Origin: Methanobacteriota archaeon
GTDB taxonomy: Archaea > Thermoplasmatota > Poseidoniia > Poseidoniales > Thalassarchaeaceae
Reading direction: 5' to 3'
Length of the DNA stretch: 44,984 nucleotides
NCBI GenBank assembly: GCA_002730095.1
Contig: PBZE01000006.1
Location: 1-44,984 of the forward strand
How positions within the stretch are numbered: the first letter of the stretch is position 1; every line of letters starts with the position of its first letter. The position numbers and the translations under genes are program-made. This document shows, one piece after another, positions 7,587 to 44,778 of this stretch. The notes beneath the pieces were generated by a model. It worked only from the letters and a program-made list of their open reading frames with translations, did not search any database and had not been told where the DNA came from.

Positions 7587-10500
7587 CTACTTTCCCGATC
7601 TGAGTCGGTTTAGACGCTGCTCAAATACATCCATCTCTTCATCCTCAGGCTCCGATAAATCCGAAGTATCTGCTACTTCTTGTATAATTTCATCGCCGCT
7701 CTCTTCAACCGGACTCTCTTTCTTAATCTCTAACTCATCTCTTCTTTGAGATAATCTAGACTTCCTTTCCAAGGCCTTCTTTTCCACAGCCAATCTAGTC
7801 TTCTCCATCATTTCTCTACTTTCTCTGAAGTTCTTAGCCATCCATGCAAAGGCGATAGAAATTCCAATGACCAGGCTCGCTGAAGCAATCGCAGTACTGG
7901 AATCACTGAACCCGCCTTCGGAATTTTCAGAACCAGAAAGGACTATCCTCGCCTCATTATCAGTCGAGTCTGAATCTTGATCCCATGGGAACTCACAGCT
8001 TATGGTTGCCACAAGCTCCACTCCATCGCTCACATCCGGCCTTTCTATAGTCGGCCTAGGGGCTAGGGCACTAGACTCAGACATATCCACATAGTACTCT
8101 TCTGAATAAGAGCCAGCTTCCACTAAAATTTTGCAAATTGAATCATCTAAAATTTGTTGGTTACTTCTTTTTGTTAGTATTGAAATTTCTTGTCCATCCC
8201 CTGTCCCAGAAATTTGCAATCCCACTAGTCCGACATTCCAATCATTCCTTCTCACATCAAATATTTGACTAGTCGAGGTAACTTCTATTCCCCTTGAGTC
8301 TATGACTCTGAGTGTTAACTCACTATATCCCGGTGCAGGATTCCAGCCTTCTGAACTCAAATTAACCACTCCCGAAGATAATCCCGGGCCAACATCACTC
8401 GAAATGGAGTCAATCATGCTTCCTTGATCATCGGAAAGAATAATCGTAAACTCGAAGTTTTCTGTCCCATTCAATATTGTACAACTGGCCTGTACCGATG
8501 CGACCTCTCCTCCTATGGAACAACTGGCCATTCTAGAAGGCGTATTGGAAACCCATGACCTATATTCAAGGGATACCGTTGAGTCTACTGTGAAGCTTCC
8601 ATTTTTCTCTATTTCCGAATCCCAGAGCCATCCAATCGGCCCCATCCATGGAAGTGACCCAGTTTCCGAGTCAATCACAACACTATTGGAATCGGTCCCA
8701 TGAATTCTCATTACATATTGGTCCCCCGAAGTAGAAATGATTACTGGACTGTTTGCCCATGAATAATCTTCTTTCCTAGTATCTAGGGAGATTTCCCTCT
8801 GGTTGCCCTCTGTATCGGAGGCCAAGATTCTGATAGTTTTTACATCTCCCTCCCATGATTTGTCAGGGATCACCTCAAGTGGTACTCCGGAAATCTCGCC
8901 TACTCCCATGATAACATTACCCTCTCCAGAGACATTCCACCCACTCGGTAGGCTAAGTACCATGAACGATATTGTACTTGGCGAATTGCCAGTATTTTCA
9001 ACCAAAGCCAATGGATAACCTCCGTTTTCGCTTACGACCCAGTCCCCAAATCCTATCAATGAAAAATCATGTGTGGCGGAGACCCTCAATGGGAAAACTA
9101 TCTCCGAAAGGCCAGTAGAGTCTCCTTCTTTGATCCTAAGGGTCAGTTCTACTGCCCTACCATGGACAGCATTTTCAGGAGGTGTAATGTTTAGGAGAAG
9201 TGGTGCACTTTCGCCCGGCTCTATAATTGGAAGATCCTCTATTTCGCCAATATGCCAGCCGCTTTCGCCAGATACGAACATGGAAATGTAGGGACGAGAG
9301 GGAGAATTTCCCGTCTGGACTACAGAGAGTAAAACCTCGGATCCTTCGGGGTCGACTTCTAGACTGGCCTGATTGACTATCGCGTTCCAAGATGGTACAT
9401 GCCCCGATTCGACCGAGAATGAAAATGCAGAAACCTCTTGCCCACGGGAAAATGCTGTAACGGTCACTTCAACCTCTGACCCACTCCAAGCATCAATGGG
9501 GATGGTAGTGCTAATCTCCATAATTTCACTCTCATTGACTCCTACGTTAGATACTGAATCTCCATACGAAGTCCAATCAGTGGAAACATCACCATTTTCA
9601 AGAGTGATTGATGTTGAAGTAATCAGTTCCAAATCATCATCGAGGTTGCCAATGTTGGTCGCTATAACATTCATTCTGAAAATCTCTCCAGGGTCAGCTG
9701 TTACCATTGCTCCATCCCCTTCTATCTCCCCTTCCTGGGTAACGAAATATGGATAGATGTCCCATTGATGGTCCTGCCTCGCCTCGAATGCAATTTCAAC
9801 TAGTGAGCTTGAATCAATGTCACCCAGGGAGCGCATCTCGAACAAAATCCTAATGGGGACCCTAGCAGGGGTATTTTCCGGAAGAACAACTGTAATTGGG
9901 ACAGTTGTCAGACTTCCGGCCGATAATGATACTGTGTCCCTTGAAAAGGAAACGATTATTCCGGGATCTTCAGAAATATTTTCGTCCATTACCAATGAGT
10001 AACCCAATTCATACGAGTCGTACCCGTTACCCGGGTTCTCAAGCCTCAAAACCACGAGAGCTTCTTCATCTACATCAACTAGTAGGGGCTGTTCTGAAGG
10101 TGCAGAAACAATCATCGACGATCTGTAGATTTGTAAGACCTCAAGAGAAAATATGAGAGAGTGATCAGCAGACTCGTTGCTGGGATCTTCGAAGTAATGA
10201 AATGCCGGTGCTGCGCTATCGGGTAGATCCAATGACAGGATCCCTTCGCCAGTCCCACTAGTGACATCCATAGTAACAAAGTCGCCGTTTATCATCAAGT
10301 CCCCGGATGCCGACCAAATCCATCCAGTTTTTGCCATTCCAGCAGAAGAAAGAGACCATGTCAGTGTGTCTGATTCCGAAGGTCTGTCAGCCTCTATGTT
10401 CCATTGCAGATTTGTTGTTGGTACGCTTCTGATATGGCTTCTACTAACTACGCCCGAGGCAATGAAGGTCAAGTCAACCGTCTGGCATGCTTCATCTCCA

Positions 10501-13277
10501 TCGACACACATAGTGAGCGCTGTTTCAACGAAATCTCCTATTGATACTGCTTGCTGGTTCTGGTTAGTAACCGGAACCTCAAGATAAGCCTCTAGAACCA
10601 TTTTCTCTCCCGGTCCTAATACCAGAGCGAAAATCTCATCCTCATTTTCGTCGAATAGTCTCAGATCACTTCCCCATAGGGTATTTCCCCAGTCCATGGA
10701 TATTTGATTTTCAGCCGCGTTTCCTATATTTTCAACTACCATCCATGCTCTTGAGAATTCACCAATTAATCCATGTCCTGTACTGAAGGAAGCACCTTCT
10801 GGCCCCCTTATCGACAAACCCCGAGTCCTATTCGCCTCAACTGGAATAATCGACGATACACTGACATTTTCGTCATCATCAAGGGTCATAGTTAGAGCTA
10901 GGAAACCAGAGTCAGATCCGAGTGCTTCTTCTGGAGCACTCACTCCGATGGAAGGGGACCAAGATTCCCCAACAGGGATCTCGATACCCTCTATTCCCCC
11001 AGTTGAAAGATCGGCCCATGTCCATCCCGGTGGTAATCCCGAGTCGTCAATCTGAAGTGACCAGGTGCCAGAGAGTCTGCCTGTCGATCTAATCGAAGGC
11101 TCTGCCGTTTCAGTTTCTCCAGGAGTTACTCTTAGGGGCTGGGACGATGTCTCGAAAGTGACATTGTATGTTGGAATTATAGATAGAATCTTGGAGAATA
11201 AGTCGTTATCAGTTCTTGTTTGGCTGATATTGCCGAAGGGGTCAATTTCCAAACTGAATTGATGGTCCCCTAATGACCCTGCCCATTCCACAGAAAAAGA
11301 CTCGAAAGACCCAGTGCCCGAGGGTGCTACAGGTTGTAATGAAGAGAACCTATGCCTGCCTATTTCTATGCCATCGGCGTAAAGCACAGCATCCACATCG
11401 GAATCTGGATTAGAAGTCCCACTGTTCTCAACGAAAGCAGTAATCTGAACATCTTGTCCAGGATTTGGAGAGGTCGGATCGAATTCTATCCCCCTTCCAT
11501 CAAGCAATGGCCTGATGTCAGCCCTCTCCAAGGAGACTACTGTGCCACCGATTATGATGTCCAGAGTCCCATCGCCATCAATGTCAGCCAATGATGGTGA
11601 AGACCATGTCCTCTGATTCAATTCCAAGTCACTGGACCATTCAGTGCTAATGCCAGACCCCGTGCCCTCCGAACCATCGAATCCCCACAGAGACCTCCCA
11701 AATCCAACTAGTAACTCAGGCTCCCCCGTCCCTTCAATGTCCATCCATACGGGTTGTGAAACCGCTATCTCATCATTTGGAGTGCCACTACTCTGCTCCA
11801 AATCTCTGTGCCAAGCCTCATCAGGACTCGAAGTATCGATATCATCCACGCATCCAGCAATACCGTGCCTTGCCGTAGTAGTCTGCCACCAAGTAACCCA
11901 GCACATTCTATCATGATCCCCATCTCCATCCGTGTCAATAGGCAGTGGGGGGGCGTCTGCATATCCGTTGGGGGCCGAATATGACCACTTCTCGGAACCA
12001 TTGGAAACCTCCAGTCCCCTATATTCTGCCCCATCCAATGTCCCTGATGAGTCGCTATCCGTCGGAATCGTTACTATGATCTCGGGGCTGTTGTCACCAT
12101 CCAGATTTGCAACTACAGGCCCGGGGAGTCTGATATGTGGGACATTGGAGTCGCCATCGAGATTCCCGAGTGATTTTCCATCCCAACTCGGGTCCCCGCT
12201 GGAGGAATCCAGCTTCCAGAGCCACATGGCACCATTTGTTGACTCAGTTGTCGTTAGCATCACATAAGCCGTATTCTCATCGGTCTGAACGAATACTGGA
12301 TCAGATCCGTGGCTCCCATATCTTAGCGTCTTATCCCATAATAATGAAGGTGAGCCAGATGAAGGAAGGGAAATTGCAACAACTTTTGGAGAATTGTCAG
12401 ACTCCTTTATTGCAGAAATGACCAGCTCCGCATCTCCATCCAGATCCAAGTCAGCGAGTAGGGGCTGAGATGTTGGCTTGTGATTTCCCCATATGCTCCC
12501 CGTATATGCTCCCTCTTCGCTGCTTATCATTAGCTCAGTGTCCTCCCACGACCAAATTAGTTGATTGTCCTTGTTTCCGCCCGATGACCAGCCAGTGACG
12601 CTACACGATAGGACAGGAGACCATGCATCAACCTGCATCTTGACGTCACTGCCAACAATTATGTCGTAAACAAGAATTATTTCAGGCCCTCCTGTCCCAT
12701 CTATGTCAACAATCATTGGCGAAGCCTTGACTTTCTCAGTCTGTCCCAAATTGACTTCCCATGCCAAATCAGAGTCCTCTCCCTCAACAATTCGAAGATA
12801 GCTATCGCCAGAAGAAGAATCTGTTTGTACTATTACTGTGAAAAGAGAGCTCCCGCCGCATCTTTCAGAGGAATCCGGATCAACTACCAGGGCTTCACTA
12901 AAGTCTCCAATTGGGGTCCCTAGCGAGTCCGTACCTATGTCGTAGTTTCCATATTCCCAGTTAATCACTGGGTCTGTAATCGAAGTCAGGGAAATATTAC
13001 TTCCCAGAGGGTCATGCCCCGGACTTTCAGAAATCCTATCTGGCGTCCTCCCTGGTTGAGGCCAAGGCTGACCTCCATCGACCCATGGATCACTGGAACT
13101 AGTTTTTGATACGTAATCAACATTTGACTGAGACAGATTATTGTTGAAATCCGAGAAAAGCGGATATGCAATAACTAGGAGCATTAGTACGGAAATAATT
13201 AGTGCTCCGCCACGCCTAGTTCGGACGTCTCGTACTCTGAGGGGCACCATCAGATTAGCAGATGGTATTTGGAACAC
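7587..13277 (-). CDS. Giant surface protein: N-terminal TM, FG-GAP/VCBS-like propeller, CARDB domain, repeated NEW3/CARDB-like Ig-type domains, C-terminal TM, cytoplasmic charged coiled-coil tail
   Basis: PMIVDIDGTGGPEIILVYD, PLLADLDLDGDAELVISA, PVVANLDGDNSPEIIVTI, PSLADIDGDGTLDIIIGG; PGQDVQITAFVENSGTSNPDSDVDAVLYADG; many N-x-G-N motifs; TM near ASASLVIGISIAFAWMA; tail EMMEKTRLAVEKKALERKSRLSQRRDELEIKK. Start may be internal at 13250 (MVPLRVRDVRTRRGG). Confidence 0.9.
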   Translation of the reverse strand: MFQIPSANLMVPLRVRDVRTRRGGALIISVLMLLVIAYPLFSDFNNNLSQSNVDYVSKTSSSDPWVDGGQPWPQPGRTPDRISESPGHDPLGSNISLTSITDPVINWEYGNYDIGTDSLGTPIGDFSEALVVDPDSSERCGGSSLFTVIVQTDSSSGDSYLRIVEGEDSDLAWEVNLGQTEKVKASPMIVDIDGTGGPEIILVYDIIVGSDVKMQVDAWSPVLSCSVTGWSSGGNKDNQLIWSWEDTELMISSEEGAYTGSIWGNHKPTSQPLLADLDLDGDAELVISAIKESDNSPKVVAISLPSSGSPSLLWDKTLRYGSHGSDPVFVQTDENTAYVMLTTTESTNGAMWLWKLDSSSGDPSWDGKSLGNLDGDSNVPHIRLPGPVVANLDGDNSPEIIVTIPTDSDSSGTLDGAEYRGLEVSNGSEKWSYSAPNGYADAPPLPIDTDGDGDHDRMCWVTWWQTTTARHGIAGCVDDIDTSSPDEAWHRDLEQSSGTPNDEIAVSQPVWMDIEGTGEPELLVGFGRSLWGFDGSEGTGSGISTEWSSDLELNQRTWSSPSLADIDGDGTLDIIIGGTVVSLERADIRPLLDGRGIEFDPTSPNPGQDVQITAFVENSGTSNPDSDVDAVLYADGIEIGRHRFSSLQPVAPSGTGSFESFSVEWAGSLGDHQFSLEIDPFGNISQTRTDNDLFSKILSIIPTYNVTFETSSQPLRVTPGETETAEPSIRSTGRLSGTWSLQIDDSGLPPGWTWADLSTGGIEGIEIPVGESWSPSIGVSAPEEALGSDSGFLALTMTLDDDENVSVSSIIPVEANRTRGLSIRGPEGASFSTGHGLIGEFSRAWMVVENIGNAAENQISMDWGNTLWGSDLRLFDENEDEIFALVLGPGEKMVLEAYLEVPVTNQNQQAVSIGDFVETALTMCVDGDEACQTVDLTFIASGVVSRSHIRSVPTTNLQWNIEADRPSESDTLTWSLSSAGMAKTGWIWSASGDLMINGDFVTMDVTSGTGEGILSLDLPDSAAPAFHYFEDPSNESADHSLIFSLEVLQIYRSSMIVSAPSEQPLLVDVDEEALVVLRLENPGNGYDSYELGYSLVMDENISEDPGIIVSFSRDTVSLSAGSLTTVPITVVLPENTPARVPIRILFEMRSLGDIDSSSLVEIAFEARQDHQWDIYPYFVTQEGEIEGDGAMVTADPGEIFRMNVIATNIGNLDDDLELITSTSITLENGDVSTDWTSYGDSVSNVGVNESEIMEISTTIPIDAWSGSEVEVTVTAFSRGQEVSAFSFSVESGHVPSWNAIVNQASLEVDPEGSEVLLSVVQTGNSPSRPYISMFVSGESGWHIGEIEDLPIIEPGESAPLLLNITPPENAVHGRAVELTLRIKEGDSTGLSEIVFPLRVSATHDFSLIGFGDWVVSENGGYPLALVENTGNSPSTISFMVLSLPSGWNVSGEGNVIMGVGEISGVPLEVIPDKSWEGDVKTIRILASDTEGNQREISLDTRKEDYSWANSPVIISTSGDQYVMRIHGTDSNSVVIDSETGSLPWMGPIGWLWDSEIEKNGSFTVDSTVSLEYRSWVSNTPSRMASCSIGGEVASVQASCTILNGTENFEFTIILSDDQGSMIDSISSDVGPGLSSGVVNLSSEGWNPAPGYSELTLRVIDSRGIEVTSTSQIFDVRRNDWNVGLVGLQISGTGDGQEISILTKRSNQQILDDSICKILVEAGSYSEEYYVDMSESSALAPRPTIERPDVSDGVELVATISCEFPWDQDSDSTDNEARIVLSGSENSEGGFSDSSTAIASASLVIGISIAFAWMAKNFRESREMMEKTRLAVEKKALERKSRLSQRRDELEIKKESPVEESGDEIIQEVADTSDLSEPEDEEMDVFEQRLNRLRSGK
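11510..12780 (-). repeat. FG-GAP/VCBS-like DxDxDG propeller repeats within the giant surface protein
   Basis: At least six repeats of the form (P/A)-x-x-x-D-h-D-G-x-G-x-x-E-h-h-h; approximate boundaries. Confidence 0.75.
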
Positions 13278-21932: not shown

Positions 21933-22019
21933 TAAATTCAGATGCAATTTACTCAGTTTTTGGCATCTTGGCTCTAAGTCACCAATTCATTCATAATGTC
22001 TGCAATATTACGAGGCAAC

Positions 22020-25000
22020 ATGTCGAACAACCGTAGGAGGCTCGCTGGAGCCCTAGTACTACTGATGTTACTAGCACCGATCACGAACGCAGCAACCACT
22101 TCATGGGCAGGACCATCAACGGTCAATACTTCTGGAGGGGAAACAACACTAACAGGATTTAGGGCACCTGGGAACGCCACAATAATGGATGGATGGGCAC
22201 ATATCACAGACTCCCCTATGGCTGCCTCCCAGACTCCAGGTGATGTGATGGATATTTTCGTGCTAGAGAATGGTACCGCATCGGGCACAACTACGGATTA
22301 CAGAAATGGCAACCTGACATTGGTCGATGATCAATCCTTGAATACCATTACCGATTTCGATCGGGGGAACTACTCAATTGTAATGAACTCTGATTATGAC
22401 CCAGGGCCGGAAGAAATCATCCGCTTGAAGTTTGAGAACTCGTCAGGGTACACCCCCCACCTAAGCTGTGGAGGGCTCAAGGGATACAACCTAACTTCTG
22501 GATACGATGACAACAAAAATGGCCAGCTAGATCCTAATGAGGTCATCGATACCGATTATCTCTGTACCACCAATCAAACCGTTCAGGGAGGGAATGGCCG
22601 TGCCCAGAATGGAACTGTTGTGAACGGATCTTTCCAGTACACTCAGTTGCCCCTTGCGGAGGGTGACGCCAACTGTCCTTTCGGCGGTAAGTCAGTCACT
22701 TACGGGAATGACTATGGTTACTACTATGACGATGATACTTCGCTGAATGCAACTGAGACAGATGGTACTCTGTACTACTGCAACAGGGACACGTACTGGG
22801 CAGCCACAAACCTAGATCTTGGCGGAACAATAAACGGAGCCGAACAGACCTTATCATTCGGAGTTATCCCTGCCCAAGCCTCCCAAGGATCTGTCGTCAT
22901 GGCCACGAAACCTGGTACTGGCATCGGAGCGGGCAATGACACATGGATCACCATACCGTCATTCTCAGTGCCTTCATACAATCTGAGGAATAACTACTTC
23001 TTGAGCTTCGATCATTGGTACCACTTGGATGGTAGCAATGGCGGAGCATGGCTAGAATATCGGGCAGGAGGAGATGGCAACCCCTGGACTTGGATCGCTA
23101 CCGATGGGGGGTACCCCTCCTACATCGATAGTACCAACATTGACGTTAACGGGGCCCCAACTGGTCAGTTGCCCGTCTTTACGGGAGCCACTCATAGCGG
23201 TTGGCAATCTGAGACCCTGAATCTTTCGAATTTATTCTCAGACCCGAATCTCAACAACTCAGTCAGTGTCGAGTTTAGATTTAGAGTATGGACCTCCAGC
23301 ACCTCGGCAGTCGTACCAGGATTGTTCATTGATGATGTCAAATACTCCAACGCTGGCAACGGCCAAGGCGTATGGCATCACGGATGCGACGTCAATAACT
23401 GGTACTATGGCCTCTATGGATCGTCCTGCTACTATTCCAACAACGCTTTGGGATACCTGACAGTTCCTATCGATTTGTACAACGTAACTGACTTAGAATT
23501 TGACGTTCATTGGGACCTAGAGGGATCAGGTTGGGATAACGCATGTATCGAGCTCTCAAACAACAATGGCGTCTCATGGACGGATATCTCATCCACTGGA
23601 TCTAGTTCTTCAACCACACAATGCAGATCCAGAGCTGGAAATATACCAGGTTCCTCCGGATATGCAGACAAAGATGGTAACATTCCTACTTTGACATACG
23701 GAACCGGTTCCACATCCACGGATGATAGCGGAGGAATGGTGACAATATCCAACTCTGTACCTGCCGCTAACCAAGTCAATGGCTCATTATTGAGATTCGT
23801 TGTCCAGACTGACGCATCGGTCCAGTATGGTAACCCAGGTGGAAATAACGACCCTGACTCCAGAGAGGGTTTCTCCGTCTTTGCATACAGGACAATGGAT
23901 TGGATCGGAGACCCGATTAATGCATATACGATTCCAGCAAATGCAACTACAAGTGGAACTAACGACTGGCAGTTCCTGACACTCAATTCTGGATACATAG
24001 ATGTTGTCCATAATTTCGAGGACTCCACAGTTTCCTCGCCCGAGAGTGATTCGGAGCCAGGCTACACAAACATGTACAGGTATTCATCATCCTCGATGCA
24101 GGCCTGCGGTACAGAAAGGTGTAAGTGGGTAGTATCGGAGCCTTCCTCACTATATGGCCCCCAATCTGCTAACTCATTCCCTTACATGTACAAAATTGGC
24201 GTGAATGGTGGCACCGATCAGTTCTATGAATCCAGCCTTGTCACACCCCAATACACTGTCTCCAATATCGGCGAGTCATCATTCGCTTGGGACATGTCCG
24301 TCTGTTTGGACTATGGGACTGGAGCCTACGTCTATGTGGGCGGAGCACTATGGATGAGGGTAAACGGAGGGCAGTGGCAACATGTGGACCATCCTTCTTA
24401 TACTGACAGGCAATACAGCTCAACTAGCATTTCCTACACAATCAACGATGGCCAAGAGATTTGGACACGAGTGCACTGCAACAGCAACGACTGGGATTCG
24501 TATGAGGTCGATCTTTCACAGTACAAAGGCGATGATGTTCAATTCAAGTTCGCAATGGGTGCACGGTTCAGTGACGCAAACTCAGGATGGCACATAGACA
24601 ATGTTGGTATTAAGCAGGGCAACTTCAGTCAGCCCGGATCATGGACAAGCCCCATCTTCTCCATCTCAGGCGATGACTCATTCAATAGGGGCCTAATAGA
24701 AGTTGATGGGTCGTCTGACGACTACGTCAATCACACACTGACTGGAACTATCATAGATGCAAACTCGGGCAACCCAATACCAGGTTATTCTGACTTGACA
24801 TTCCCGATCAGTTTAGCGGGCGTCGACTCTGAGACACACTCAAGTTTGAGACTCATTGTTGAGATGGATACAACTAATCCTCTAGCGTCTCCTATGCTTG
24901 AGTACATCAGAATAGGAGGCAAGAGGCTCCTAACTGCAGATATGATGGGGGTCAATGGTTGGCAAATGACCAATGTTGACAGAGTGGACGGACTAATTAA

Positions 25001-28000
25001 CGCAACCACTATATCTGGAACAATCACTTCAGATTATCTACATTCAGTCAGACCAATAAAGGCACTAACATTCGGAGGGAACTCTTCCACCAGTGTCCAA
25101 ATTGAGGTCTTCGATGAGGGCGGAAACTCGATTGGCAGTACGTCCAAAGGAGGGTCAGTACTATTCCCCACTCCAAGGACAGGATACTCCTTGGAGGTTA
25201 CATTGCCAACAAACGGATACATAGATAGGCTGGAGATATCACATCTCTATGGCGAACCTGCATCTGATATAGAAATAGACTTTGTAGATGATGATATTCT
25301 GGATTGGTCATTCCCCAATCAATTAGCCAGAGGCCACTATGCGTGGCAGACAAATTTGCTTGGAAGCCAGTCAGTTGGTTCGTCAGAGGGTACCAAGTCT
25401 GTGACTATGAACGTGGGGCCAAACCCGACATCTGCTTATGCAATCGTGCCTACTAGTGGATACGTCAACACAGGGCTAATCACCCTGCTTTCAGACTCAG
25501 ATGGATTTGAATCATCTGTAGATATTGATGTATCCGGAGTTTCCTTCTCTACTGGATCTAACACGGAGAGGTTCACATCAGAACTTAATTCATATCAGAT
25601 TTCAGCAATAAACTCCTTGTCATCAGGGTGGTCAGACACCGGAACTGACAGGGATTGGAGAGTAGTGGAATTTGCTCTTACATCTTCTCAGACGCAGACC
25701 GTTACACTGACAGGACTAGCACTTGGTTACACGATGTTCGAGAATGTTTCTGACATTTCAGGGCCGATCTCTCAGTACCATAGTGATAACACACAGGGCG
25801 ATACACCACCAGTTGAGATAGCAATTCCAGTCACAATCTCGTCATCGACTGGCTCTGTCTCTATTGATGGAGACCTGATCTATGATTACATAATGACCAA
25901 CAGGGACTTCCAAGTTCCCAATACCCTATATCCAGATGGAAATATCAATGAAATAGAGACTGCGCACCATCATCTGAATGACAACTCATTACTAGCTGCG
26001 ATAGAGCTCACTGGGACCGCCTCAGACGGCCAGGTGATCTCATTCAGAGCAGATAATGGAGACGACGGACTTTGGGGCATGGGAAGTGACCCAGTCACGT
26101 TCACCCAGATCTCGGGTAGCAGTGTCGCACCGCTCGACACTTCTCAGTCATATGTGGAGATGGTAACCCATTCCGACGGTTATGACGACGTAGTGGTCAA
26201 CTGGATGTTCGACATCAACTGGAATTGGGACGATGTCGAGTCTATCAGGTGGGTATCTACCGCTCTTGATGAATATGGCGAGTTTGTCTGGCCATCCGTC
26301 TCATTCAGTGGCCAAGGCAATGCCAAGGCCGTAGAGAACGATCTCCAGATAGAGTCGTTCGAGGTCAGAGATGAGTATGATAGGCTACTATCCAATCAGT
26401 TCTCAACATTCTATCCGTTCCCAGTTAAGTCTACCAATGATGTCATTGTGTCGGGTACGGTCAGATTCCAGGACGCGTCTGACGCCAGACCCATGGCTAC
26501 AGATTTCCTCGTCGGATTGAATATGTCAGGATCTCTCTATTCGATGACCATGGGGGACAATGGATCTTTCGAGACTACCGTAGATTGGCTTAGCTCGTCT
26601 ATAGCTGGAAGTGAAGTAACTCTGTCCCCGTTGATGATAACCGTGGGGCCTTCAGGCTCTACAGTCGGTGCAGTAGACACTACTGGGGCCCCTCCTCAGA
26701 CGAGTATTATAGTCGACTCAAATGCTCCCATCGCTGGACCTCTTCAGGTCAATACACCTTCGGGCCTCCAAGATGCACATGGGAAGGTCTGGGATCCGAC
26801 AGTACCGCTATCCTTGTTCATTACTATCGATGAGCCCGAGGCTCGAGGAGAATCCATCACTCTCCATTATTGGAGGGAGAGTACTGACGACACAAATATG
26901 GACGGGATTGCTGATGAGGATGAATATCTGAGCCAGACGCAACCGCTCTCTTCCGGGATGACCGGTCAACAACAAGTTAACTTCATCGGAATCGATGTAT
27001 CTGCTCAGGACTTCAACAGCCCAGTTCACTTCTATGTGGAAGGAACTGATTGGGCTGGACTCACATACCAGGAGGGAGGTACTGGAGGAGCTGTTGGCGC
27101 AGGGAACTCATGGGCCTCTGTTATCGTGGCCACAGACGAGCCTACCAGCATAAAGAACTCAGGCTTCTCAATGGACTCGGAAATCGGCTTCTTGATGGCT
27201 GGACAGTCTCATATATTCACTATGCAGATAGAGGAAGCTAATGGCATCAACACACTTGATAACGTTACAATAATGCTATGTGGAGACGGCCCCAGCAATC
27301 TCGGAAAGATGTCCTACGACCCTTCAAGAGGGACTCTATGGTCATCACCCGATAGCATGGTAACCCCAATCTCCGTTCAAACTCAGGATGTTACAGCAAT
27401 AGTCACCGAACTAAGTGTAATTTTCGAACTTTCATGGGATTACCCATGGGAAGAAGATCAGCTATCATGCAAGCCCAGCGTATCCATCCTGGATGACCTG
27501 AACACAGTTGATTTCAAGAATAATATCGGTGAACTATCATGGCAGTTGGACAACAAATTCATGGCCTTGCCTGATACAATAATTGACATGACCGAACCGG
27601 TAATGGAATCCATAGATGGACAATTATTCTTGAGACAAGGCGATGAATTCAGTATCTCTGGATCCATCGTCTATGCTGGTTCTGGAATGCCAATCACCGA
27701 TATCCCTGAGGGACTAACGGTGGAGGCAGCAGTCGTATATGGTTCTCAGACAGTTACATCAGATGCCGACGTAACCGCTGAATCTAGATTCACCATTACT
27801 ATGCCTCTCCCAGATAGAGTTCCATTGAATCCATACATGGGCATTTCCGTCAATGTGGAAAATGTCCCTGGACTGGGTAGCTCCACAGCCAATGAAGACT
27901 ATTCCGTAGTAGTCGATAGTAGGTCTCCAACGGCATTGTTCGACCAGATTACTTATCCAGATTCATCACTCACAATAATTGAGTCTGATATGGTCGACAA

Positions 28001-28889
28001 CGTAAAGGTCACAGTCACCATCAATGACGAAGTCGGTATGCAGGATGGGCCATTGCAGGTTTCATGGGTTTATCTCCGTGGAAACTCACCAGTCGCAGGA
28101 ACAGAGGACAGCGGGGAACTGGTAATGATTTCAGAAGGAGATAGGTCATCATCTGCTAACTGGGCCGACGTCTACCAGTCCCGCTTAGACCTGACCCCTA
28201 ATAATGACATGAGAATTGAGGCAGGAGACGCCATTGCTTTCTGGGTAACTTCGACAGACAAAGCAGGTAATGAGATATCTGGACTCGGTAGTGAGTCTGC
28301 TCCAAAGGTTCCAGCACTAAGGATAATGGAATTCCTAGGAGAATATGTCAGATCTGTCTCATCACCGACAGCTCCACTGATGAATGAGATAGTTACGATC
28401 GAAACATTCTGGGAGAACTCCGGGAAGAGAGATGGATCATTGGTAGTCGGGCTCTACGAACTAATCTATGAGGTAGACGCCAATGGTGAGTCGACAGAGA
28501 GATGGCAACCATCCTTGACTACTGCCCAGACTCCAGATATGGAGATACAGCTAGCAGCGGAATCTACGAGCGTCAGAGTCTCGTTCAAGTGGGAAGCAAC
28601 CGCACCTGGGCAACCAAATCTATACATTGTAACAGATGTGGATGGAGATGGCAGTATAGGAGAGAATGACTTCAATGCAGCTGATATAGCCATTGGAGGA
28701 ATTAGCGTGACTCCCCCACCAAGTACAGATGAAGGCTCTACAGACAGTGCCATCATGATGATTGGAGGAATAGCAATAGTCGCGATAGGCGCCATAGGTT
28801 TCCTGATGAGTCGTAGAGGTAGTGATGAAGACATGTACTACGAAGATGATGACTATGAATACTATGACGAAGAGGAAGAAGACTACTAG
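22020..28889 (+). CDS. Giant secreted/cell-surface protein (about 2290 aa) with signal peptide, C-terminal TM and acidic/Tyr-rich cytoplasmic tail
   Basis: MSNNRRRLAGALVLLMLLAPITNAA signal; Cys-containing DxNxNGxLDxxEVxxTxYLC-type repeats near the N-terminus; TM SAIMMIGGIAIVAIGAIGFLMSRR; tail DEDMYYEDDDYEYYDEEEEDY. Track start 21996; ATG 22020 has upstream GAGG. Confidence 0.92.
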   Translation: MSNNRRRLAGALVLLMLLAPITNAATTSWAGPSTVNTSGGETTLTGFRAPGNATIMDGWAHITDSPMAASQTPGDVMDIFVLENGTASGTTTDYRNGNLTLVDDQSLNTITDFDRGNYSIVMNSDYDPGPEEIIRLKFENSSGYTPHLSCGGLKGYNLTSGYDDNKNGQLDPNEVIDTDYLCTTNQTVQGGNGRAQNGTVVNGSFQYTQLPLAEGDANCPFGGKSVTYGNDYGYYYDDDTSLNATETDGTLYYCNRDTYWAATNLDLGGTINGAEQTLSFGVIPAQASQGSVVMATKPGTGIGAGNDTWITIPSFSVPSYNLRNNYFLSFDHWYHLDGSNGGAWLEYRAGGDGNPWTWIATDGGYPSYIDSTNIDVNGAPTGQLPVFTGATHSGWQSETLNLSNLFSDPNLNNSVSVEFRFRVWTSSTSAVVPGLFIDDVKYSNAGNGQGVWHHGCDVNNWYYGLYGSSCYYSNNALGYLTVPIDLYNVTDLEFDVHWDLEGSGWDNACIELSNNNGVSWTDISSTGSSSSTTQCRSRAGNIPGSSGYADKDGNIPTLTYGTGSTSTDDSGGMVTISNSVPAANQVNGSLLRFVVQTDASVQYGNPGGNNDPDSREGFSVFAYRTMDWIGDPINAYTIPANATTSGTNDWQFLTLNSGYIDVVHNFEDSTVSSPESDSEPGYTNMYRYSSSSMQACGTERCKWVVSEPSSLYGPQSANSFPYMYKIGVNGGTDQFYESSLVTPQYTVSNIGESSFAWDMSVCLDYGTGAYVYVGGALWMRVNGGQWQHVDHPSYTDRQYSSTSISYTINDGQEIWTRVHCNSNDWDSYEVDLSQYKGDDVQFKFAMGARFSDANSGWHIDNVGIKQGNFSQPGSWTSPIFSISGDDSFNRGLIEVDGSSDDYVNHTLTGTIIDANSGNPIPGYSDLTFPISLAGVDSETHSSLRLIVEMDTTNPLASPMLEYIRIGGKRLLTADMMGVNGWQMTNVDRVDGLINATTISGTITSDYLHSVRPIKALTFGGNSSTSVQIEVFDEGGNSIGSTSKGGSVLFPTPRTGYSLEVTLPTNGYIDRLEISHLYGEPASDIEIDFVDDDILDWSFPNQLARGHYAWQTNLLGSQSVGSSEGTKSVTMNVGPNPTSAYAIVPTSGYVNTGLITLLSDSDGFESSVDIDVSGVSFSTGSNTERFTSELNSYQISAINSLSSGWSDTGTDRDWRVVEFALTSSQTQTVTLTGLALGYTMFENVSDISGPISQYHSDNTQGDTPPVEIAIPVTISSSTGSVSIDGDLIYDYIMTNRDFQVPNTLYPDGNINEIETAHHHLNDNSLLAAIELTGTASDGQVISFRADNGDDGLWGMGSDPVTFTQISGSSVAPLDTSQSYVEMVTHSDGYDDVVVNWMFDINWNWDDVESIRWVSTALDEYGEFVWPSVSFSGQGNAKAVENDLQIESFEVRDEYDRLLSNQFSTFYPFPVKSTNDVIVSGTVRFQDASDARPMATDFLVGLNMSGSLYSMTMGDNGSFETTVDWLSSSIAGSEVTLSPLMITVGPSGSTVGAVDTTGAPPQTSIIVDSNAPIAGPLQVNTPSGLQDAHGKVWDPTVPLSLFITIDEPEARGESITLHYWRESTDDTNMDGIADEDEYLSQTQPLSSGMTGQQQVNFIGIDVSAQDFNSPVHFYVEGTDWAGLTYQEGGTGGAVGAGNSWASVIVATDEPTSIKNSGFSMDSEIGFLMAGQSHIFTMQIEEANGINTLDNVTIMLCGDGPSNLGKMSYDPSRGTLWSSPDSMVTPISVQTQDVTAIVTELSVIFELSWDYPWEEDQLSCKPSVSILDDLNTVDFKNNIGELSWQLDNKFMALPDTIIDMTEPVMESIDGQLFLRQGDEFSISGSIVYAGSGMPITDIPEGLTVEAAVVYGSQTVTSDADVTAESRFTITMPLPDRVPLNPYMGISVNVENVPGLGSSTANEDYSVVVDSRSPTALFDQITYPDSSLTIIESDMVDNVKVTVTINDEVGMQDGPLQVSWVYLRGNSPVAGTEDSGELVMISEGDRSSSANWADVYQSRLDLTPNNDMRIEAGDAIAFWVTSTDKAGNEISGLGSESAPKVPALRIMEFLGEYVRSVSSPTAPLMNEIVTIETFWENSGKRDGSLVVGLYELIYEVDANGESTERWQPSLTTAQTPDMEIQLAAESTSVRVSFKWEATAPGQPNLYIVTDVDGDGSIGENDFNAADIAIGGISVTPPPSTDEGSTDSAIMMIGGIAIVAIGAIGFLMSRRGSDEDMYYEDDDYEYYDEEEEDY

Positions 28890-36100: not shown

Positions 36101-37084
36101 GTGGCATGGATGGTTGGGGTCTCATGGTTTAATTCCTTTATCTCAAATATCGAGATGAGACTGAGTCTAAGCTTAGGTAGGAAATTAGCACACGCTGCAT
36201 CAGAAACAGAAGAATTTTTCCTAATCAATCAAAATCGCAGGAAGCTCGGCTCGAATATAGAAAGGTGGCAAGGCCTCTCAGAGGACAGGAAGTCTAGGGG
36301 TCTCGGCGATATAGAGGTAATCAATCAGTCATTTGAGACGGCTAATATTCTTGTGAACCGTTTCTCTTCAGGTCCGATGGAGGCAGGCATATTAGCCAGC
36401 TCATGGGAGTTCGCAAAGAAGAAACGGTACAAATTTAGATGGTCAGACTCGGGAGGAGTATTGCTAGTAGATCTCGAACTAGATGACATCACTGTTCCCA
36501 TTCCCGAGGAAATGACATTTAGTTGGAGCAAGGGCTCTTCCGAAGTCATACCCTCCGATGTGGTTAGATGGGAGGACGTAAGGGAATTGGAACTAGGAGG
36601 TTGGGAACTGGATGGAGATAGAAAGGCCATGATACACCGAGATCTTATCCTCAGATTCGAAGAATTCTCAATTCACAATATCCAATCATTGACAGAATCT
36701 AGGTCTGAAGACTATAATTGGGAGTTAGCAGAAGGAAAGAGGGCATTGTGGTGGACCGCACTAGCAGACACCTCAAGGCATCTTTTCATGGAGAGCAAAA
36801 GACATGTAATGATATCAGAGGCCAAAGATTGGATTTCCGTATCCATCCGGAATCTTTCATCATATGGCCTGGGAATGATTTCAGATCCAGAAATAGATTT
36901 GGAAACAGGTGAGCTAAATGCAACCCTGATTGGTACATTTCATCCGGCGATATCAGGGGGAATTATTCTTGGTTGTTGGGAGAGGTCCACTGGTTCCAAA
37001 GGCAGGGTTACAGTTAGTTTAGATGATGGAAAATTAAGGGTAAAAATATCTCCAAAAAGGCCATCTCCCATCAGAGTAGATTAA
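36101..37084 (+). CDS. Hypothetical protein (327 aa)
   Basis: Single long ORF with no recognised family; RSRVRAD/KxRP-rich C-terminus; start uncertain. Confidence 0.65.
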   Translation: MAWMVGVSWFNSFISNIEMRLSLSLGRKLAHAASETEEFFLINQNRRKLGSNIERWQGLSEDRKSRGLGDIEVINQSFETANILVNRFSSGPMEAGILASSWEFAKKKRYKFRWSDSGGVLLVDLELDDITVPIPEEMTFSWSKGSSEVIPSDVVRWEDVRELELGGWELDGDRKAMIHRDLILRFEEFSIHNIQSLTESRSEDYNWELAEGKRALWWTALADTSRHLFMESKRHVMISEAKDWISVSIRNLSSYGLGMISDPEIDLETGELNATLIGTFHPAISGGIILGCWERSTGSKGRVTVSLDDGKLRVKISPKRPSPIRVD

Positions 37085-37156: not shown

Positions 37157-40100
37157 ATGGCCATGAATCACAATCAATATGCTGTAACAGCCATCGTAGC
37201 GACTCTATGTTTAGCAGGAATTTACACCATAATTGGGGCCGGCTTGTCTACCACCGAATCTGGTGGATTCGAACCAGCTGGTTCCGACGTGGCTGACTTT
37301 GAAGCTACTGGAGAAGGCGGTGTTGACACTGACGAAGATGGCATTCCTGATAGGATGGAAATGACTCTCTATGGAACAGATTGGAGGGAGTTTGACACCG
37401 ATAACGATGGCTTGAATGACGGGTGGGAGATTAGAAATGGCCTCGATCCACTTGATAACGGCGAGCCTGCTGACACTGAGATACCATTCGAGGACACTGA
37501 GAATGAAGATGAGACAGGCGAACAAAATGAAACGTTCCCCAATCCGGACAATGGTCCTTATGGGGATCCAGACAGGGATGGCCTGACCAATACTGAAGAG
37601 GCCGCTTTGGGCACCAAGCCAATGGACGCAGACTCAGACGATGACGGATTGAATGACAAATGGGAATCAACTCACGTCCATGAGATAATCACCCCAAATG
37701 GGGTGCTAAGACTATTGGACCCCCTGAATGCAAACAGGGATTGCTATTTCCTTACTCCTGACGGTTCTGTAAATAGTCAGGGGCCCGATGCTAGGCAGCA
37801 GATTATGAACGAACTAAGTGACTCAGACTGGGACTTGGTTGCTAATGCAGACGGTGAGATTTCGTGTGATGCTGCACTGGATTTAGAGCAACCAACTCCA
37901 GATGGTCTCAGGAATTTCGTAGAGGAGAGATATGACACTAATCCACTTCAGGAAGATAGCGACGGGGATCTAATCGCAGATAGGCATGAAATTGCATTCG
38001 GCGCAATAGAGCTAGGAGTGCACTGTGGAGTTCCCGTTTTCGGTACGATTAGTCTCCAAGCACCATTCCATGAATTCATGGAAGAAGCAGGAGATCTGAC
38101 CTGGTTTGAGCAAGATATGGATGGCGATGGACGCTTGAATGGACCAAGCGACTGGGATACTGATGGCGATGGGATGCCCGACGGTTTCGAATACTGTTAC
38201 GGCGATTTACTAGATCCTTCCAATGCCACTGATGCCTACGGGGATCCCGATGACGACGGCCTAAATAATGTCGAAGAGTACGAAGTCGCATACACATGGG
38301 GTCCCTCGAATTTTACTGATCCGCAGGAATTTGACACCGATAACGATGGAATGCCAGATGGATGGGAGTACCTTAGTGGGATTCATCCAAACGATGGAAG
38401 TAATGCCGATGATGACCCCGATTTTGATGGATACGACTCCGACGGGGATGGAGGAGTCAGGTACTCGGATATGATAGGGGTTTCAACAATACAATCCATC
38501 GTTGTGGATATAGGGGACTATGTCCAAGTCAACAAGACGGTTCTATGGGTTAGAACGGTCCAGGACAGCGAGTATGTCAACATTCCAGTTAAGACCCTAA
38601 CTGCCGGTTGGGTGTACCACATTAACGTGAATGTGGGAGATGAGGTTTCTAGCAGGCTACAGGATCTAATCATTGTTGTTGAGGAGGACGAGAGATTCAC
38701 CAATCTAGATGAGTTCAATGCCAGAGACAGAGATGGCGACGGGGCAGTGGATGGCAGATCTACCGATCCACTATCGCCAGATACCGATGGGGACGGACTT
38801 CTTGATGGAATTGAGGTGAACGGATGGACAATTAGGATAGTCGATCACGGAGTAAGGGATGTAATTGTCAGAAGCGACCCTGGGGCTTATGATACTGACA
38901 GAGATGGGCTGTCCGATGCTGTGGAATATTATGAGACATTCACAAATGCCACCGACAAAGATACCGATTCAGACGGCCTAGAGGATTTTACCGAGGCCAT
39001 TGATGGCTTTATCTGGAATGGTTCAGTCTACTTCACCAACGCGTCAGCTTTCGACTCTGATAATGATGGCCTAGAAGACGGCGAAGAAGTTGTTGATGGG
39101 CAGGACCAATACATTACACATGCCAATAATGCCGATAGCGACGCCGATGGATTGGATGATGGAGGAGAGGTACTCTATGTCCCAAGGCCATGGCAATCCC
39201 CTACTAATCCACTGAACAATGATACTGATGGGGACTCGCAGCCAGATGGATGGGAGATGCAGGTATTCTCAGTTCAGCAGAACACCAATAGCCACAGCCT
39301 TTGGGTAGTTACTGATTGGTGGCTTCCTCCTGGTTGCGACTCTATGATGGAATGTGGACTCGGCCCCGGCGGCTGGATATGGAAGAACTATCTCGATGGC
39401 TTCTCATCTTCCGGAGACAGGGATGGCGATGGAAAAATAGACCCTGAGTATTTCTTGTGGGAGCTGAACATTTCTGGATTCTTCATTCCCGATGGCGGCA
39501 GGTGGGCTTTGGATCCTTCATATGGCTCGATCCCTGACTCCGTCTTCGATATTGACAATGACACGCTCATGAATTCACAAGAGGCCCCTGACAGATGGGA
39601 TACCAATCCCGTATCCCATGACACAGATGGGGACAAGCTGCCTGATGGATGGGAAGTCACCTACTCTGAGGAGTCTCTAATGATGGGTTTGGTCGATAAC
39701 AACACCTTGGACGCCCTTGGCGCAAGAGGGCCGATGGACCCAAGAATGCCAGATTCCGATCTTGATGGAATAGATGATGGACAGGAGGACTTCGACGAGG
39801 ATGGCCTCAATCGAACAAACCTGATGAATAGGTACTGCCCGGGATGGAATAATCCACAAAACTCAGAGTGCCACATAGACCATATGACTGATGCAGGTAA
39901 CAGGTTCTACGATGATCTTGAGAACTACACAAACTTTGAGGAGTACCAAAATGGCACTAATCCAGTGAATGCCGATACCGACGGCGATATATGGGAAGAT
40001 GGCTCAGAGGTTTATCACCAAGATCAGGATGACGATTCGATGTGGGCAGGATGGGAGTATTACTTCGGATTCGACCCCTATGACCCAGCGGACGCTAATG

Positions 40101-40213
40101 TTGACTCAGATGGTGACGGATTCGTCAATAAATGCGAGAACAAATGGAATACCCATCCTAAGGACCCTACAAGCTTCCCTTCACAGGGCGAGCTCTGCGA
40201 TATGTTCAACTAA
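37157..40213 (+). CDS. Secreted thrombospondin-type-3/calcium-binding repeat protein with internal biotinyl/lipoyl-like module
   Basis: N-terminal hydrophobic segment AVTAIVATLCLAGIYTIIGAGL; many DTDxDGLxDGxE repeats; module VVDIGDYVQVNKTVLWVRTVQDSEYVNIPVKTLTAGWVYHINVNVGDEVSSRLQDLIIVVEEDE. Confidence 0.92.
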   Translation: MAMNHNQYAVTAIVATLCLAGIYTIIGAGLSTTESGGFEPAGSDVADFEATGEGGVDTDEDGIPDRMEMTLYGTDWREFDTDNDGLNDGWEIRNGLDPLDNGEPADTEIPFEDTENEDETGEQNETFPNPDNGPYGDPDRDGLTNTEEAALGTKPMDADSDDDGLNDKWESTHVHEIITPNGVLRLLDPLNANRDCYFLTPDGSVNSQGPDARQQIMNELSDSDWDLVANADGEISCDAALDLEQPTPDGLRNFVEERYDTNPLQEDSDGDLIADRHEIAFGAIELGVHCGVPVFGTISLQAPFHEFMEEAGDLTWFEQDMDGDGRLNGPSDWDTDGDGMPDGFEYCYGDLLDPSNATDAYGDPDDDGLNNVEEYEVAYTWGPSNFTDPQEFDTDNDGMPDGWEYLSGIHPNDGSNADDDPDFDGYDSDGDGGVRYSDMIGVSTIQSIVVDIGDYVQVNKTVLWVRTVQDSEYVNIPVKTLTAGWVYHINVNVGDEVSSRLQDLIIVVEEDERFTNLDEFNARDRDGDGAVDGRSTDPLSPDTDGDGLLDGIEVNGWTIRIVDHGVRDVIVRSDPGAYDTDRDGLSDAVEYYETFTNATDKDTDSDGLEDFTEAIDGFIWNGSVYFTNASAFDSDNDGLEDGEEVVDGQDQYITHANNADSDADGLDDGGEVLYVPRPWQSPTNPLNNDTDGDSQPDGWEMQVFSVQQNTNSHSLWVVTDWWLPPGCDSMMECGLGPGGWIWKNYLDGFSSSGDRDGDGKIDPEYFLWELNISGFFIPDGGRWALDPSYGSIPDSVFDIDNDTLMNSQEAPDRWDTNPVSHDTDGDKLPDGWEVTYSEESLMMGLVDNNTLDALGARGPMDPRMPDSDLDGIDDGQEDFDEDGLNRTNLMNRYCPGWNNPQNSECHIDHMTDAGNRFYDDLENYTNFEEYQNGTNPVNADTDGDIWEDGSEVYHQDQDDDSMWAGWEYYFGFDPYDPADANVDSDGDGFVNKCENKWNTHPKDPTSFPSQGELCDMFN

Positions 40214-42585: not shown

Positions 42586-44778
42586 TCATGAAAGAATCGG
42601 GCCAGGATTGTCCCAATAGTGCCATAATTGCCTCTGATCACCGTCCCAAGCTGTGAAGTATAGCTTATCCCCAACGCTAGTAAGCCACCATGGCCAACTA
42701 CCATTTTCTCCTTGATGGACATCCACTACAATCTCCGTGCCAGACTCAGTGCCATCTGTTCTCCAGAGCTCTTGCCCACTCTCTCCATCGTCAGCACTGA
42801 AGTAGAAATGTTCGCCATGTGTAAGGGTGTATTCTCCATGCCAATGTTCGGTACTTCCCCATGATAAACTACTATTCTCGCCCACATTTAGGTCCTTTAC
42901 CATAACCGTGCCTGCTTCTGTCCCATCAGTCTTCCAGAGTTCGTATCCATGTTCCCCATCTGTGGCACCGAAGTAAACTTCGCCGTTAAGTACCTTCATT
43001 GGGCCTGTAGGATTGCTTGAGTTATTCCCTGGATTGATGTCTTTGATCATATATGTTCCTAATTCGGTATTGTCGGTTATCCATAGTTCTCTTCCATTTT
43101 CTCCATCATTTGCAGAAAATATCAGTTTATCCCCCAGTTTTGTTAACCAGAGTGGATTGCTAGAATTATTAAATCCTGGTCGAATATCCTTTACCACATT
43201 AGTCGTAAATGCATCTCCTAGAGAGAAATGTAATTCCTGCCCGGTTGACCCATCATTAGCTGTGAAGTAGAGTCCTCCAGAGCCCCTTGTCAAATAAAGA
43301 GGATCACTTCCAACAGTCCCCGGATTGATATCCTTGACTAGAAATAATCCTCCGCCCAGAGATAGGCCAAACCTGTACAACTCTCTGCCATAGTTCTCAG
43401 TATCCCCCGTAAACCATACTTGATTCCCAATTACCAAAATATTCCTTGGAGCCGATCCATCCCAATCTGCGCAGCATTGGCTATTCCCATTATCATCGAT
43501 CCACGAGCTCGTCTCTGGCTCAATATTTGCAATCATCCTAGTGCCTACTTCAGTACCATCGCTTATCCATAATTCTTCGCCTTGTGGGTATCCCTGCTCC
43601 CCATCCAGTCCATCTGCTCTGATAGCAGAGAAAATCACTCTATCCGCATTATTGCCATTGGACTCTATGACTTCAAGATTCGAAACTCCAACATAGTCAA
43701 ACTCACATCCATCACATCCATAATCCCAATAATTCCATAGGTCCGTAACTATATTGGTGCCATCACTAGTTCCATCACTTACCCATAGGTCTGCAGCAGA
43801 CCAAGTTGTAAATTGGTTGTAAGCAGTGAAAAATACCAGATTTTTCCCAGCGACCACTTCCACCGGCATGAATATGTTATCCCAAGTCCTGTCAAAATTG
43901 GAACTGTAATTTACACAATCCTCAGTTGCCTCGCCTGTGTCTGGGTCTACTGATGGGCTACATTCTTCTCCTCTAATGTCAACTAGGATGTAGCTCCCAG
44001 AGAGGGTCCCATCACTTCTCCAAAATTCCCAGCCATGAATTCCATCATCAGCAATGAAGTAAAGCACGCCTCCCATTTCAACAACCCTCTGATGAGCCCA
44101 ATTATGTTCAGTAGTAGTCTCATTGTATACCATTCCATAATTCCCCGGGCATTCTCCGACTGTGAACTGTATCTCGTCGAATGTAATCATGCCATCGCCC
44201 TCAACACCGAGCCCATTCCCGTCATCATATCCAATATTCAAAAGAAATCCTGGGTTATCAAGTGGGCATTCATCAACATAATAATTCAATGAATAAGTTA
44301 GGCTTGATAGAGTATTTTGAAGTGTTAATATGGTGTGCTCTAGGTTATCGATGGAAACATCTTTCTGAGCAATCTGTGAGCCTAGATCAATAATTTGATT
44401 GTCTAAATCCATTATTTGTTGATCCAATGAGGAGATCTCTGTATGTAGGGAAGATACGTTTTCTTCCGATTCATCCAGCTGAATCGCAATCTCATCACGT
44501 ATCTGTGCCAACGCATTTCTCTGTCCTTCTAGTTCCGAGATACTCATCTCTAGGCTGGTAACTTCAGACTCAATTGCAGACAGTTCCTCATTCGCTTCAG
44601 TCAAGGCACTTTGTAGAGTTGATATCTGGCTCTGAGCGTCATTATTTTCAGATATTGAATCCTCCAATTCAGCTTCTAAATCCTCAATCCTATCCGTATT
44701 CCCAGAATCACTACTGGTACATCCGGATAATATTGAACTGAACAACAGTAATGCTATGACTGCGGACCTTAGTCTCAT
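42586..44778 (-). CDS. Lipoprotein: long coiled coil followed by about eight ELWxTDGTxxGTxxVKDI repeats (likely propeller)
   Basis: Lipobox LLFSSILSGCTSS; heptad-rich residues about 30-160; repeats such as ELWITDNTELGTYMIKDINPG, ELWKTDGTEAGTVMVKDLNVG, ELWRTDGTESGTEIVVDVHQG. Confidence 0.9.
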   Translation of the reverse strand: MRLRSAVIALLLFSSILSGCTSSDSGNTDRIEDLEAELEDSISENNDAQSQISTLQSALTEANEELSAIESEVTSLEMSISELEGQRNALAQIRDEIAIQLDESEENVSSLHTEISSLDQQIMDLDNQIIDLGSQIAQKDVSIDNLEHTILTLQNTLSSLTYSLNYYVDECPLDNPGFLLNIGYDDGNGLGVEGDGMITFDEIQFTVGECPGNYGMVYNETTTEHNWAHQRVVEMGGVLYFIADDGIHGWEFWRSDGTLSGSYILVDIRGEECSPSVDPDTGEATEDCVNYSSNFDRTWDNIFMPVEVVAGKNLVFFTAYNQFTTWSAADLWVSDGTSDGTNIVTDLWNYWDYGCDGCEFDYVGVSNLEVIESNGNNADRVIFSAIRADGLDGEQGYPQGEELWISDGTEVGTRMIANIEPETSSWIDDNGNSQCCADWDGSAPRNILVIGNQVWFTGDTENYGRELYRFGLSLGGGLFLVKDINPGTVGSDPLYLTRGSGGLYFTANDGSTGQELHFSLGDAFTTNVVKDIRPGFNNSSNPLWLTKLGDKLIFSANDGENGRELWITDNTELGTYMIKDINPGNNSSNPTGPMKVLNGEVYFGATDGEHGYELWKTDGTEAGTVMVKDLNVGENSSLSWGSTEHWHGEYTLTHGEHFYFSADDGESGQELWRTDGTESGTEIVVDVHQGENGSWPWWLTSVGDKLYFTAWDGDQRQLWHYWDNPGPILS

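Follow-up and report, generated by a model that had tools for sequence, protein, structure and literature searches.

A barrel-sandwich module resembling cofactor carriers interrupts a calcium repeat in a predicted surface protein of Poseidoniales

A large calcium-repeat protein of the archaeal order Ca. Poseidoniales (Marine Group II) contains a biotinyl/lipoyl-like barrel-sandwich module. We identified it in a window of 44,984 nucleotides, the whole stretch of DNA analysed (assembly GCA_002730095.1, contig PBZE01000006.1, family Thalassarchaeaceae). Our analysis establishes the fold of the module, its point of insertion and its order-wide conservation. It also establishes the absence of a carrier lysine and of an adaptor hairpin. 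We consider it reasonably probable (about 0.6) that the module is a rigid side or spacer contact domain in a membrane-anchored, calcium-stiffened surface glycoprotein. Poseidoniales are among the most abundant archaea of the surface ocean. To our knowledge, the order has no cultured member and its cell surface is known from sequence only.

A TSP3-repeat protein with features of a surface glycoprotein

The host protein and its N-terminal segment are as follows:
37157..40213, + strand: predicted TSP3-repeat surface protein holding the module (open reading frame, 1018 aa; Pfam TSP3_bac; orthologues)
37181..37240, + strand: N-terminal hydrophobic segment, aa ~9-28 (Kyte-Doolittle; kept in orthologues)

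The 1018-residue protein belongs to the TSP3 repeat family. Pfam TSP3_bac, the sole domain over cut-off, scored 26.8 bits (cut-off 25) and matched ten stretches. An orthologue scored 55.2 bits and orthologues across the order are ~1000-1070 residues long. The N-terminal segment has a 19-residue Kyte-Doolittle mean of 2.08; the next best value in the protein is 1.39. This segment, the sole strong transmembrane candidate, may serve as export signal and anchor. The protein is acid-rich, with 239 Asp and Glu residues versus 42 Lys and Arg. Cysteines 196, 237, 290, 347, 727, 733, 894, 905 and 993 are each missing from at most one of the 110 orthologues, across which about 14 N-glycosylation sequons are also conserved. 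Such sequons, together with disulfides and a lone helix at the N terminus, fit an archaeal surface glycoprotein. An extracellular location had been predicted by a first-pass annotation of the sequence and is supported by the helix, the acid excess, the cysteines and the sequons. We infer that the protein is surface exposed and glycosylated.

A single-sequence search of the PDB with the whole protein found no relative. The full-length AlphaFold2 model had a pLDDT of 41 and was set aside; the placement of the module on a rod is not readable from it. Searches for viral copies returned none, and the sole good matches in a viral structure library were lipoyl-type proteins of giant viruses.

By repeat, the nearest named TSP3 proteins are two from Myxococcus: CglD, a lipoprotein that functions in gliding, and MtsD, which functions in cell-cell cohesion. 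The NCBIfam CglD model matched the whole protein with an E value of 5.8e-30, at 103.8 bits versus an equivalog cut-off of 400. A match to residues 316-554 seemed to span the module and to indicate a domain shared with CglD. We rejected this candidate; the flanks match, whereas the module alone matched neither the CglD nor the MtsD model. All three are calcium-repeat proteins and their likeness resides in the repeats. The "thrombospondin" genes of Poseidoniales also encode calcium-repeat proteins, for which a part in adhesion has been proposed, as has a particle lifestyle for the order (PMC6461757).

An interrupted calcium repeat

The insertion point comprises four elements:
38414..38431, + strand: opening half of the split TSP3 unit, DPDFDG, aa 420-425 (conserved; compare the intact unit DPDDDGLNNVEEY, aa 363-375)
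38435..38470, + strand: EF-hand-like calcium loop DSDGDGGVRYSD, aa 427-438, adjoining the module N-terminally (calmodulin profile match)
38474..38689, + strand: barrel-sandwich hybrid (biotinyl/lipoyl-like) module, aa 440-511 (profiles, AlphaFold2, Foldseek, internal repeat)
38696..38716, + strand: closing half of the split TSP3 unit, FTNLDEF, aa 514-520 (conserved; compare the intact units)

Where TSP3 units are intact, as at residues 137-148 and 363-374, they follow the pattern D-P-D-x-D-G-x-x-N-x-x-E. As we read the repeat pattern, the EF-hand-like loop and the module would together be one insertion that splits one TSP3 repeat. Thr515 and Asn516, in the second half of the split unit, occur in all 110 orthologues. 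The profile match of the loop to calmodulin loops has E values of 0.02-0.1, and loop position 12 (aa 438) is acidic in 93/110 orthologues. Putative calcium-ligand residues of the protein are conserved and the motifs flanking the module may bind calcium. The protein is organised as first described, with an export or transmembrane segment at its start and a module that interrupts the DxDxDGxxD array.

The barrel-sandwich fold

The sequence in which the first-pass annotation recognised a biotinyl/lipoyl-like fold is the exact translation of 38471-38692 (+), residues 439-512 of the open reading frame. Its half-motifs, GDYVQVN (453-459) and GDEVSSR (494-500), are offset by 41 residues. With the window module alone, NCBIfam biotin/lipoyl carrier models matched at 4e-5 and E2p at 1e-4. 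Pfam Biotin_lipoyl gave E values of 0.047-0.06 for the single sequence; the match at 0.047 scored 14 bits, under the curated cut-off of 22.1. We also searched the PDB with a profile of 19 orthologues that included no carrier. Lipoyl, biotinyl or membrane-fusion proteins took all of the top seven places, with E values of 1.8e-10 for E2p lipoyl domains (summed over three domains) and 1.8e-4 for BesA.

Structure prediction with 62 orthologues gave an AlphaFold2 pLDDT of ~80-94 over the module and low values in the flanks. Pyruvate carboxylase, BesA and biotin carriers were the top Foldseek matches of this model. It superimposed on the biotin carrier protein (BCCP) of Pyrococcus horikoshii at 1.5 A, with a TM score of 0.89 by target length. 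Across 110 orthologues, the mean BLOSUM62 score between positions 41 residues apart was +0.71, and it was negative at all other offsets of 35-47. In the window sequence alone the repeat is modest, being equalled by 113 of 3000 shuffles. Two beta half-motifs, pseudo-twofold symmetry and a flattened barrel, the marks of a barrel-sandwich hybrid, are evident from AlphaFold2, Foldseek and the internal repeat. An unrelated fold was not seen. The fold suggested initially was thus borne out by profiles, modelling, structural comparison and symmetry. We conclude that residues ~440-511, as modelled, form a complete barrel-sandwich hybrid domain.

Conservation across the order

The module was found in 39 of 40 near relatives. 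We then drew 390 genomes from across the phylum, 127 of them Poseidoniales. Whether orthologues keep the module had been raised at the outset; it was matched in 119 of the 127. Six of the eight without a match were followed up: in three, contig ends carry pieces of the protein, and three have no clear orthologue. One Poseidoniales genome with no clear orthologue, G242 (family f2, genus g19), is 90% complete in 30 contigs; either true loss or a gap in the assembly may account for it. In the sister family of the class, none of the genomes listed in the draw has the module, and matches to the TSP3 protein are at repeat level only. Two weak matches lie outside Poseidoniales (G108 and G282; E in the 1e-4 range), and these are likely ordinary carriers on one reading.

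In both families of the order, spanning about 20 genera, the module is retained at the same place in the protein and at almost constant length. It is somewhat less conserved than the surrounding repeats. Gly484 is present in 110/110 orthologues, as are two non-core residues, Tyr487 and Arg500. Asn459 and Arg500 occupy equivalent places in the two halves; carriers have Gly at these sites. Asn459 begins a sequon:
38531..38539, + strand: N-x-T sequon NKT, aa 459-461, where the first half-motif would canonically have Gly (110-orthologue alignment)

The sequon is kept in 107 of the 110 orthologues. Three further orthologues are more divergent. Two of them lose the sequon, one loses Tyr487 and one has Gly back at position 459. 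Hence, the "invariant" sequon, Tyr487 and Arg500 are weakened as a functional signature, since divergent orthologues drop one or another. The sequon is likewise weakened as a special mark of the module, being one of the ~14 conserved in the protein. In the divergent sequences the fold pattern persists although some of the best-conserved polar residues are lost, which suits selection on structure better than on an active site. Asn459, Arg500 and Tyr487 are candidate contact-surface residues.

Comparison with carriers and hairpin adaptors

The module has the fold and length of the E2p lipoyl domain and of P. horikoshii BCCP (2d5d/5gu9). It also has the two-half pattern of biotinyl/lipoyl carriers, GDxVxxG..L / G.V..I.V..GDxV, and its best sequence matches are carriers. 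These similarities would favour an active extracellular carrier of biotin or lipoate. In carrier domains, which are parts of carboxylases or dehydrogenases, the turn joining the two halves always bears at its tip a lysine that can be modified. In contrast, the module has no conserved lysine there and belongs to a calcium-repeat protein predicted to be exported:
38558..38584, + strand: turn between the halves, aa 468-476, the modified-lysine site of carriers (residue 473 is Tyr here)

The lipoyl-lysine of E2p aligns with residue 473 (turn VQDSEYVN), 11 residues before Gly484. Tyr predominates at this residue (88 of 110 orthologues), followed by Gln (12) and Lys (7); Lys anywhere in aa 468-476 is likewise limited to 7/110. 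Neither an M-K-M nor a D-K-A motif is present. The first-pass annotation was right that the lysine is probably unmodified but mistook VKTLTAGW for the carrier turn; Lys479 sits in the following strand. A turn lysine, for which it proposed inspecting orthologues, is therefore not a conserved feature. Furthermore, biotin and lipoate are attached in the cytoplasm, whereas this protein has a predicted export signal. Because the lipoyl-lysine position is usually Tyr and is Lys in so few orthologues, we reject carrier function; the handful with Lys speak for it, but we regard it as scarcely credible.

Besides adhesion, the first-pass annotation had suggested a hairpin adaptor of the MFP/HlyD type, which serves secretion or efflux pumps. 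BesA is among the top matches by sequence and fold (Foldseek E ~2.5e-4). As predicted for the module, the barrel-sandwich domains of BesA (4kks) and HlyD_D23 employ the fold outside the cytoplasm and not as carriers. In MFP/HlyD adaptors, a long alpha-helical hairpin splits the barrel-sandwich domain. By contrast, the Val456-Gly484 span of the module is 29-30 residues in 109/110 orthologues, and no helix was found between the strands of the AlphaFold2 module model. The inter-half loop does not grow and there is therefore no adaptor hairpin. Also unlike membrane-fusion proteins, the module is accompanied by neither beta-barrel nor membrane-proximal domains, and calcium repeats flank it. Among neighbouring genes with an assigned family, none encodes a transporter of the kind partnering such adaptors; the closest candidate, encoded on the opposite strand, is a TauE-type permease. 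We thus discarded the hairpin adaptor and regard a pump-adaptor role as highly improbable.

Role of the module

We favour a contact domain. The protein would be anchored in the membrane and extend as a calcium-stiffened rod on the cell surface, with one TSP3 repeat split by the EF-hand-like loop and a non-carrier barrel-sandwich domain. The module would touch neighbouring copies, flanking repeats or another surface protein, and calcium bound on both sides would hold it in position. We offer contact making, and likewise any adhesive function, only as proposals. Any analogy to adhesion is weakened by the CglD and MtsD matches, which arise from the TSP3 repeats and not from the module.

The lower conservation of the module compared with its flanks could instead mean a passive spacer that makes no specific contacts. 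Such a spacer would be a stable fold that the common ancestor acquired by chance; it would have no partner and be retained because its loss would disturb the rod. The imperfect retention of its most conserved polar residues agrees with this. Retention over two families and about 20 genera at near-constant length does not, nor do Tyr487 and Arg500, identical throughout the 110 orthologues. We consider a passive spacer possible but doubtful. More tentative still is an order-specific assembly interface, in which flanking calcium would lock a former carrier fold and so join copies of a major surface glycoprotein. If true, this would be an extracellular use of the barrel-sandwich fold that is neither carrier nor pump. 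The module could also bind ligands or glycans, its surface capturing substrates or attaching to particles. This would suit a predicted surface protein, the weak matches to NqrA_N and RnfC_N (which share this fold without being carriers) and the proposed particle lifestyle (PMC6461757). However, no conserved pocket or catalytic set was recognised in the module, and we consider such binding improbable.

Compared with these alternatives, a contact domain remains our preferred reading. A known fold is well conserved in an unusual setting, with a function that we infer. The combination of a barrel-sandwich domain with a TSP3 surface protein is probably undescribed; few papers in the literature searched join these topics. 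The module is a clear further example of a cofactor-carrier fold put to another use, here in a protein with predicted export. A ~1000-residue protein with a recognisable non-enzymatic domain, present in nearly every Poseidoniales genome, is a concrete target for structure determination and localisation.

Gene neighbourhood

In the window, genes for alanyl-tRNA synthetase, an aminotransferase and a 327-residue protein lie upstream of the TSP3 gene; genes for archease, the TauE-type permease and an IMPDH/GMPR-type protein lie downstream. The steady companion is the gene directly upstream:
36101..37084, + strand: fast-evolving 327-aa protein, directly upstream of the TSP3 gene (no Pfam family)

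A Pfam search with the 327-residue protein gave no family, and its identity between the two families of the order is ~22-28%. In nearly every genome that yielded its gene, this gene immediately precedes the TSP3 gene on one contig, and the exceptions are contig breaks. It is a candidate for a co-transcribed partner of the TSP3 protein, or possibly an assembly factor.

In other genera the TSP3 gene is part of a larger conserved cluster:
L141:1635-14747 and matching parts of L142-L147: conserved cluster of other genera, partly taken apart in the genus of the window

The cluster begins with an aminotransferase, a TPR-containing exported protein of ~1050 residues and an SHMT-like enzyme. It continues with a fast-evolving gene of ~360 codons and the TSP3 gene, which are followed by genes for an exported PKD-domain protein, for an aminopeptidase P and for a CofH-like radical SAM enzyme. 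In the genus of the window, a relative of the PKD protein is on another contig. Beside the cluster of one relative (L144:15770-18001, -) is a calcium-repeat protein with a match to the PNGase F C-terminal domain (4.4e-20).

The window encodes further large proteins. An 1896-residue protein with FG-GAP and CARDB matches (7587-13277, -) is another likely large surface protein. A 2297-residue protein (21996-28889, +) has DUF7151 as its sole match. Finally, the first 170 residues of a 730-residue protein (42586-44778, -) contain a long coiled-coil.
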